A stretch of 64,000 nt of DNA from Arcobacter sp. (GTDB taxonomy: Bacteria; Campylobacterota; Campylobacteria; Campylobacterales; Arcobacteraceae). A model generated the notes under the pieces. It saw only the letters and a list, made by a program, of their open reading frames with translations, had not been told where the DNA came from and did no database searches. Where the stretch lies: the NCBI GenBank assembly GCA_002685075.1, contig NYWO01000108.1, positions 27,281-91,280 of the forward strand, written 5' to 3'. Position 1 is the stretch's first letter. Every line of letters starts with the position of its first letter. Of the stretch, positions 17,555-19,525 are shown one piece after another. Both the position numbers and the translations under genes were made by a program.

Positions 17555-18001
17555 TTATTCTCCTATGATTATAACTTCCAGTGATGCATGAACTGCATGA
17601 CCTAATTTACAATCAATAATAAAAGTACCTTCAGCTTTGATTTTTTTATCTAATGATAAATTCTTTTTATCAATTTCAATAGAGAATTGAGTATTTAATT
17701 CTTCTGAAATTTCTTTATTTGTAACAGAACCAATTAAATGTCCATTTGCACCTATTTTGTGTTTAATAGTAAGTTTTGTTGCATTTAATTTTTCTGCTAA
17801 TTCTTTTGCTGCTGCAATTTCTTCTGCTTCTTTTGCATCTTTTCTTTTTTGCTCAGCTTTATATTTTGCTAATACGTCATTTGTTGCATGTAAAGCTAAA
17901 CCTTTTCCGATTAAGAAATTTTTTCCATAACCATCTTTAACTTCTTTAACTTCACCAGCTTTTCCCGTACCTTGTACATCTTTAATTAATAAAACTTTCA
18001 T
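17555..18001 (-). CDS. rplI: 50S ribosomal protein L9
   Basis: 148 residues, the normal L9 length. The N-terminal RNA-binding domain is [31 protein letters not shown], then the long connecting helix rich in Ala, Glu and Lys (about 40-75), then the C-terminal domain ([15 protein letters not shown]). Translation starts at ATG 18001 behind GGAGTAA. It is the first gene of the long leftward run, ahead of hslVU, with a -10 at 18035-18040. Confidence 0.97.
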
Positions 18002-18065: not shown

Positions 18066-18110
18066 TAATACTCTTGGTATTTTAATTAACTTGCAATATC
18101 AAGAGTATTA
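18066..18110. repeat. Perfect 11-bp inverted repeat overlapping the end of the recombinase-like gene
   Basis: TAATACTCTTG at 18066-18076 is the exact inverse of 18100-18110, with 23 bases between. The right arm encodes the last residues of the recombinase-like protein. No T-tract follows on either strand, so it is either a weak terminator or a protein-binding site. Confidence 0.6.
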
Positions 18111-18727
18111 GGCAAATTTTGTCTAATATTCCTTTTTTTAACATAATTATTTAAACCTATATGATTATTATATCCTAAAAGTTTTGCAATTTTTCTAACA
18201 GATAATCCAACTGATAATAACTCTTCAATTTTATCTCTTTGCTTATCAAATTTAGATTTTTGAATGGTTCCTACAGGTTTACCTAAAGCAACACCTGATA
18301 ATTTTTTTGCACTTAATGCTTCTTTTGTTCTTAGACTCATTAAGTCTTTTTCTAATCCAATAGTCATAGAAATCATACCTAGAATCATTTGAGTTAACAT
18401 ATCTTTATCATCAACTAAATCAAGATTTTGCTTAACTACTAATATTCGTATTTTATTAGTTAAAAGAAATTTAACAATTTCTAAAATAGTTTCAATTGTT
18501 CTTCCAAATACATTTAAATCATAAACAATAAGTGTTGAGTTTTTTTCACAGTTTTTTAGTAATTCTAGAATATTTTTTTCATCACTAGGAGTACTAATAT
18601 CAATCTCTATATTTTTGTAAATTTCAATATTATGTTTTTTTACATAATTATTTAAAATATCTTTCTGTTCTTCTGTATATTTCTCATTATTCTTGTTTAT
18701 TCTCATATATATGAAAACATTTGACAT
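18086..18727 (-). CDS. Serine-recombinase (resolvase/invertase) family protein with substituted active site
   Basis: 213 residues in the Hin/gamma-delta resolvase layout: catalytic-type N-terminal domain (1-about 140), helix E (ISMTIGLEKDLMSLRTKEAL) and a C-terminal helix-turn-helix (about 165-200, LLSVGLSVRKIAKLLGYN). Aligned by eye with Hin, the motif Y-x-R-V-S reads YMRIN, so the nucleophile Ser is Asn11. The LDRLGR motif reads LNVFGR, so the Asp is Asn72 and the first Arg is Val73; Arg9 and Arg76 remain. Strand-exchange activity is therefore unlikely and a DNA-binding role is inferred. No inverted-repeat-flanked segment or transposase is nearby. ATG 18727 has AAGGA upstream. Confidence 0.85.
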   Translation of the reverse strand: MSNVFIYMRINKNNEKYTEEQKDILNNYVKKHNIEIYKNIEIDISTPSDEKNILELLKNCEKNSTLIVYDLNVFGRTIETILEIVKFLLTNKIRILVVKQNLDLVDDKDMLTQMILGMISMTIGLEKDLMSLRTKEALSAKKLSGVALGKPVGTIQKSKFDKQRDKIEELLSVGLSVRKIAKLLGYNNHIGLNNYVKKRNIRQNLPNTLDIAS

Positions 18728-18970
18728 GATTTATTCCTTAACATTAAGTATATTTTTAATATATAAAGTTACATAGTGTTTCGTTTATATATATAAAATT
18801 TATACAAAATGTTAACAAATTATTATTAATTTAAACTTAATTTTTAATTAATCAATGCCATATTTAGACACTTTATAGAATATGTCTTTACACATATTAT
18901 TATACAGTTTGAATTAAAAGTCTTTTTTTGATATTATCTTTTTGAATATATGTAAACAGAAAGGTATCTT

Positions 18971-19525
18971 TTGAAAATTACTGTTGGAATCTCAGGAGCA
19001 AGTGGAGCTAATTTAGGTCTTAATTTTGTTAAAAAACTTCCTAAAAATATTGAAGTTTTTTTAGTACTTTCTAAGAGTGCAAAAATTGCATTAAAATTAG
19101 AAAATGGAATTTCTGTAAAAAAAACTTTTGAACAATATCCAAATGTCAAAATATTTTTAGATAGTAATATTGCTGCACCAATTGCATCTGGCTCATTTAA
19201 AGTGGATAAAATGATTATCATTCCATGTTCAATGAATACACTTGCAAAATGTACTGTTGGAATTTCTGATTCATTGATTACAAGGGCTTTTACAGTAATG
19301 TTAAAAGAAAAAAGAGATATAGTTCTTGCACCTAGAGAAATGCCCCTTAATTCAATTGCTTTAGAAAACATGTTAAAATTATCTACCTTAGGAGTAATTA
19401 TAGCTCCTCCTGTTCTTGGATATTATTCAAGTCAACAAACTCTAGAAGAAATGGAAAGTTTCTTAATTGGTAAATGGTTTGATTTACTAAAAATTGACAA
19501 TAACTTATATGAAAGATGGAAATAA
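18971..19525 (+). CDS. ubiX: Flavin prenyltransferase UbiX
   Basis: A 184-residue flavoprotein of the UbiX/Pad1 family, which attaches a prenyl group to FMN to make the cofactor of UbiD decarboxylases, needed for quinone synthesis. The N-terminal ITVGISGASGANLG, the PCSMNTLAKCTVGISDSLITRA segment and LAPREMPLN are diagnostic. Start is TTG 18971, with AGAAAGG about 9 bases upstream. First gene of a rightward run; coaD starts 1 base after its stop. Confidence 0.93.
   Translation: MKITVGISGASGANLGLNFVKKLPKNIEVFLVLSKSAKIALKLENGISVKKTFEQYPNVKIFLDSNIAAPIASGSFKVDKMIIIPCSMNTLAKCTVGISDSLITRAFTVMLKEKRDIVLAPREMPLNSIALENMLKLSTLGVIIAPPVLGYYSSQQTLEEMESFLIGKWFDLLKIDNNLYERWK

Follow-up and report, generated by a model that had tools for sequence, protein, structure and literature searches.

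Bound at res, the Tn3 resolvase autoregulates both tnpR and tnpA (PMC7157771), and Mpi is an active, global DNA invertase (PMC4747536). In Bacillus subtilis, the chromosomal yneB gene shares an operon with the SOS-induced yneA (PMC6051672). In a 2022 review of genes recruited from mobile elements, passages on serine recombinases concern recruits that still act as enzymes, the Hin-type invertases among them (PMC8987985). Here, we analysed a window of 64,000 nucleotides from Arcobacter sp. (contig NYWO01000108.1), which carries the gene of a small serine recombinase with a replaced catalytic serine. Like the TnpR resolvases of Tn3 and gamma-delta, this protein has the resolvase fold and domain order, a divergent gene beside its own, and several candidate sites in the promoter region that the two genes share; unlike them, it lacks the catalytic Ser, Asp67, Arg68, and Arg45, has no transposon, and is accompanied by a different site sequence. 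The Mpi-type invertases (NF009949, master DNA invertase of Bacteroides fragilis) provided the sole and best NCBIfam match (residues 4-203, E = 3.4e-27), but the score of 95.5 bits lay under the cut-off of 272, which places the protein outside that family, and in contrast to Mpi it has no nucleophile. YneB resembles it as the product of a chromosomal gene, and NCBIfam terms the YneB family resolvase-like, whereas the phylum and the genomic context differ. The catalytic Ser of YneB is intact. Literature searches, mostly of journals open without subscription, returned no description of the Arcobacteraceae protein or of the ccoG-linked family described below.

The original prediction of a full resolvase layout with its helix-turn-helix (HTH), an intact frame, and a ribosome site was borne out (Table 1). 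The protein matched Pfam Resolvase (PF00239) with 67.5 bits against a cut-off of 23.3 (E = 1.8e-18). The C-terminal HTH typical of small serine recombinases was recognised from a weak HTH_38 match, under its own cut-off, together with the C-terminal helices of the structural model and the hyperconservation of this part. Aligned with gamma-delta resolvase and Hin, the protein has N11 in the Ser10 column, N72 in that of Asp67, and V73 in that of Arg68, exactly the columns first proposed, and E50 additionally occupies the Arg45 column. Among the active-site and hallmark residues, Arg8 (R9), Gln19 (Q21), Arg71 (R76), Glu118, and Arg125 are retained. Only Arg8 and Arg71 therefore remain in the family from the active-site set Arg8/Arg45/Asp67/Arg68/Arg71, and from the sequence we infer that the protein has lost cleavage. 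A terminator-like hairpin, followed by a T run on the + strand, was also observed near the 3' end of the gene (18103-18131).

Table 1. Features of the recombinase locus, in window positions unless residues or another locus are given, and members of the ccoG-linked family.
Feature	Position	Strand	Description
rplI	17555-18001	(-)	Leads rplI-hslV-hslU, downstream of the recombinase gene
Small serine recombinase gene, putatively dead	18086-18727	(-)	213 aa, ATG start, AAGGAA ribosome site
Resolvase fold	residues 1-105		Domain of the 213-aa protein
Dimerisation helix E	residues 110-143		Domain of the 213-aa protein
Linker and HTH	residues 143-200		Domain of the 213-aa protein
Intergenic region	18728-18970	.	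243 bp, shared with ubiX
Candidate site C	18738-18753	(+)	Inverted copy TTAACATTAAGTATAT, adjoins the recombinase ribosome site
Candidate site B	18769-18780	(-)	AACACTATGTAA, ~32 bp downstream of site A
Site A	18800-18815	(-)	TTAACATTTTGTATAA, ~90 bp before the recombinase ATG, conserved family-wide
ubiX-proximal block	~18900-18945		Conserved separately, taken as the ubiX promoter
ubiX (flavin prenyltransferase)	18971-19525	(+)	First gene of ubiX-coaD-tmk-hisS-speA, divergent from the recombinase gene
ccoG-linked family	e.g. L091:3945-4565		Members L090-L095, L098, L104-L106, L130-L147, L149

The predicted structure was in line with this assignment. An AlphaFold model built from a 24-row alignment (mean pLDDT 82, pTM 0.57), in which the relative placement of the domains is uncertain, displayed the alternating fold, a 34-residue helix E (110-143), and C-terminal helices at 157-198. 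The top Foldseek matches of the model were serine recombinases, including complexes of the Tn3 and gamma-delta resolvases with DNA, and the structural-alignment identity to the TnpR resolvases of Tn3/gamma-delta was ~16-17%.

Replacement of the catalytic residues was found throughout the family. Over 59 distinct sequences, the Ser10 column held Asn in 54 and Ile in 3, with 2 unread; that is, none of the 57 readable sequences of this conserved family carried Ser, the exception being two nested, diverged members considered below. The Arg45 column was Glu in 59/59, the Asp67 column was Asn in 55, His in 3, and Thr in 1, and the Arg68 column was Val in 57/59. Arg8 and Arg71 were constant wherever read, Gln19 and Arg125 were intact, and the columns of E118 and R125 were conserved. 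Chance or sequencing error behind the loss of Ser was ruled out by the 59 concordant sequences. Ser45 and Ser48 had been named as possible alternative active-site serines; since the former column varies (S/N/D/T) and so does the latter (S/D/E/K/N/R/V), neither replaces the nucleophile. Serines are invariant only at S131, S158, and S176, which belong to helix E, the linker, and the HTH and are outside the active site. A single cysteine, C60, was conserved in 58 of the 59 orthologues and was absent at that column in the intact relatives compared; it may conceivably serve in redox or metal sensing.

The median dN/dS was 0.106 overall (NG86, 12 close relatives), with 0.125 for the N-terminal part and 0.059 for the DNA-binding part, and 37 of the 58 linker-HTH columns were invariant. 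Judged from these sequences, purifying selection on the recombinase gene is strong. A pseudogene was ruled out by the dN/dS values together with the conservation.

The closest relatives, at 92-97% identity, came from Poseidonibacter strains and other Campylobacterales genomes, and further named relatives belonged to Arcobacter, Halarcobacter, Malaciobacter, and Aliarcobacter. The window itself is assigned to Poseidonibacter or a close relative. In the search of relatives, an orthologue was found in all Arcobacteraceae genomes examined except two draft assemblies. In an even draw of genomes across the phylum, the gene was present in 21/21 Arcobacteraceae (one being a diverged g7 copy), and no match of comparable score was obtained beyond this family. 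Therefore, the recombinase is near-core in one bacterial family.

The lone position of the gene between housekeeping operons was also upheld, with rplI-hslV-hslU on one side and ubiX-coaD-tmk-hisS-speA on the other; the names ubiX and rplI are assigned from the protein sequences. The divergent pairing with ubiX was kept in nearly every orthologous locus of sufficient length and varied least of all parts of the neighbourhood. No transposase was present among the neighbouring ORFs within the window, and the family gene sits at a fixed chromosomal spot among housekeeping genes, which sets it apart from members of Tn3-type transposons or plasmids. The interval between the recombinase gene and rplI ranged from 0.1 to 3.5 kb in relatives and held ordinary-looking genes that differ by species (L037, L038, L049, L050, L040), which suggests a variable spot. 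In genus g4 (L022, L023, L069), the recombinase gene lies elsewhere, away from ubiX, next to genes that by eye resemble those of cobalamin biosynthesis.

Phylogenetic analysis placed the presumed dead family of Arcobacteraceae in one clade of single origin (support 100/100), which arises within the Ser-bearing recombinases of Campylobacterota (support 98/88). These nearest relatives in the tree (L079, L080, L083, L110, L125, and others) have the same linker and HTH layout; unlike the dead family, they carry a YIRVST motif with the catalytic Ser intact and are sporadically distributed. Site A was absent upstream of the intact relatives checked (L079, L080, L081, L083, L110, and L125). Two sequences from one small-genome Arcobacteraceae genus (L077:4047-4655 and L078:4003-4620) bear Ser at the Ser10 column and fall inside the dead family in the tree; their Arg8 is replaced by Lys, Arg68 is lost, and the Asp67 column is Ser. 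The L077/L078 gene is fast-evolving, has been relocated to a different neighbourhood, and no longer has site A upstream.

The intergenic region contains a conserved site in front of the recombinase gene. Of 52 intergenic regions, 46 carried the family motif TTAACATTWYGTATAA roughly 90 bp ahead of the ATG, where the site A match (threshold >=14/16) fell at -84 to -101, and four more had a full match at 45-58 bp. Scores at the level of site A were seldom reached in dinucleotide shuffles of the same regions. Candidate site B reads AACATTATGT in many relatives, and the best reverse match fell at the position of candidate site C in 20/52 intergenic regions; both are weak in many species. The three sites are spaced by ~31-33 bp, near three helical turns. 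Site A ends in TATAA, possibly a -10 element; promoter and operator functions are thus inseparable by sequence, and part of the conservation of site A may reflect promoter function. In genus g4, from which ubiX has gone, a one-mismatch copy, TTAACATTATGTATAT, was located upstream of the recombinase gene at -59/-60. The motif therefore seems to follow the recombinase gene rather than ubiX, so that a conserved own-promoter site stays with a moved gene, the moved case being one genus and a one-mismatch site.

Genome-wide pattern matching was used to look for further sites. In the genome of the window, site A alone matched the family pattern perfectly, and a perfect match was present at the recombinase promoter in 8 of 9 genomes, with one mismatch in the ninth. 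Other perfect matches numbered 0-2 per genome, six in total across five genomes, and five of the six were inside ORFs. When off-promoter sites were sampled (the six perfect ones and some with one mismatch), nearly all were within ORFs; the exceptions were a site in L161, 26 bp ahead of an ORF, and an intergenic one in L166. Pattern matching across the 8-9 genomes revealed no genome-wide set of further sites that would form a regulon.

Because the cutting residues are lost yet the gene is retained at one position with a conserved upstream site, the protein is most likely a DNA-binding regulator. We consider it probable that it is a domesticated, non-catalytic serine recombinase acting as a dimeric, sequence-specific, autoregulating one. 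This agrees with the original prediction of a domesticated DNA-binding protein that is not a mobile element, to which the vertical inheritance at a fixed place, the strong selection, and the own-promoter motif all point. Cleavage would have been lost through Ser10 to Asn, Asp67 to Asn, Arg68 to Val, and Arg45 to Glu replacements, with the fold, the dimer element of helix E, and the hyperconserved linker-HTH retained. The protein would then bind TTAACATT/GTATAA-type sites in its own promoter, namely site A and presumably B and C, and thereby set its own level, much as Tn3 resolvase, itself still recombining, represses its own gene from res. Of a TnpR-like resolvase, the repressor half alone would be left, with binding, dimerisation, and repression as the sign of regulation all putative, as would be any target beyond the own promoter. 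A pure autoregulator with no other target would be odd, which counts against this explanation, and the regulon search found none; the protein may also use weaker sites or have an architectural role.

Part of the same evidence could fit a protein of architectural or nucleoid type, whose dead dimers would pair sites and bridge DNA like an accessory synaptic complex, the own-promoter sites being merely those most easily seen. The conservation of helix E and of the dimer-contact fold, including the E118 and R125 columns, and the regular spacing of the three site copies would suit such bridging. We nevertheless regard it as unlikely: no motif array or excess was seen elsewhere in the 8-9 genomes, where pattern match counts overall, palindromic counts included, were not above those of reversed-pattern controls. 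The constancy of the divergent pairing raises the question of whether the main target is the ubiX-coaD-tmk-hisS-speA operon, with the protein as a local repressor or activator, which would explain the conserved neighbourhood. This appears quite improbable, as site A lies ~100 bp from the presumed ubiX promoter block, with B and C farther away, and as the g4 gene has left ubiX with the motif still upstream of it.

Retention of Arg8, Gln19, and Arg71, and the occurrence of intact relatives in some Arcobacteraceae genomes, could also be read as signs of a recombinase still active through a different nucleophile, or of a helper acting in trans on an active recombinase. Such activity is highly improbable, given that no replacement Ser or Thr is conserved at the active site, that Asp67, Arg68, and Arg45 are gone as well, and that the intact copies are sporadic; the source genome of the window (86.5% complete) gave no second match to the protein even at E<=10. 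Loss of the catalytic residues would likewise be expected of a functionless, decaying remnant of a mobile element, a reading that retains next to no probability and is refuted by the intact ORF at a family-wide fixed spot, the dN/dS of ~0.1, and the invariant HTH.

In further families of the order, profile searches uncovered a second serine recombinase family that lacks Ser10. Wherever the locus was readable (27 of 27, from 26 genomes), ccoG lay directly downstream on the same strand, with frames mostly overlapping or touching; apart from these, L105 has another downstream gene on a short contig, and the contig of L145 ends before the neighbour. The identity of CcoG was confirmed by a TIGR02745 match for one representative. 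Both families belong to the same superfamily, lack Ser10, and have a fixed neighbour, the ccoG-linked one mostly as one copy per genome; the latter differs from the Arcobacteraceae family in retaining Arg45, in having lost Arg71, in its HTH and neighbour, and in carrying two near-invariant cysteines (28/29 and 27/29 sequences). In its structural model, helix E is shortened to ~16 residues. Five Arcobacteraceae genomes inspected had ccoG with no member of this second family adjacent to it.

The two dead families formed separate clades in the tree, and the AU test did not reject a joint clade (p = 0.069). One common dead ancestor of both is disfavoured by the tree and by the complementary losses, the AU value leaving a single clade possible. 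Retention of Arg45 in one family and of Arg71 in the other argues for largely separate decay, and on their sequences the ccoG-linked family is probably separate from that of Arcobacteraceae. The two cysteines make the ccoG-linked family a candidate sensor of redox conditions or metal in the assembly of cytochrome oxidase. We tentatively propose, with somewhat less than even confidence, that on two or more occasions in Campylobacterota a serine recombinase was converted into a regulator that binds DNA without cutting it and passes by vertical descent. The Arcobacteraceae gene, autoregulated and next to ubiX, would be one case, and the ccoG-linked family of much of the remaining order, possibly with Cys-based sensing, another.

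Through the ccoG-linked family, the ccoG operons of much of an order are seen to contain a gene that seems not to have been described before. If our reading of the Arcobacteraceae protein is true, it would offer a small relative for studying binding and pairing without cleavage, and its retention throughout a family, under strong selection but without cutting, would demonstrate that the resolvase fold can persist for binding alone.
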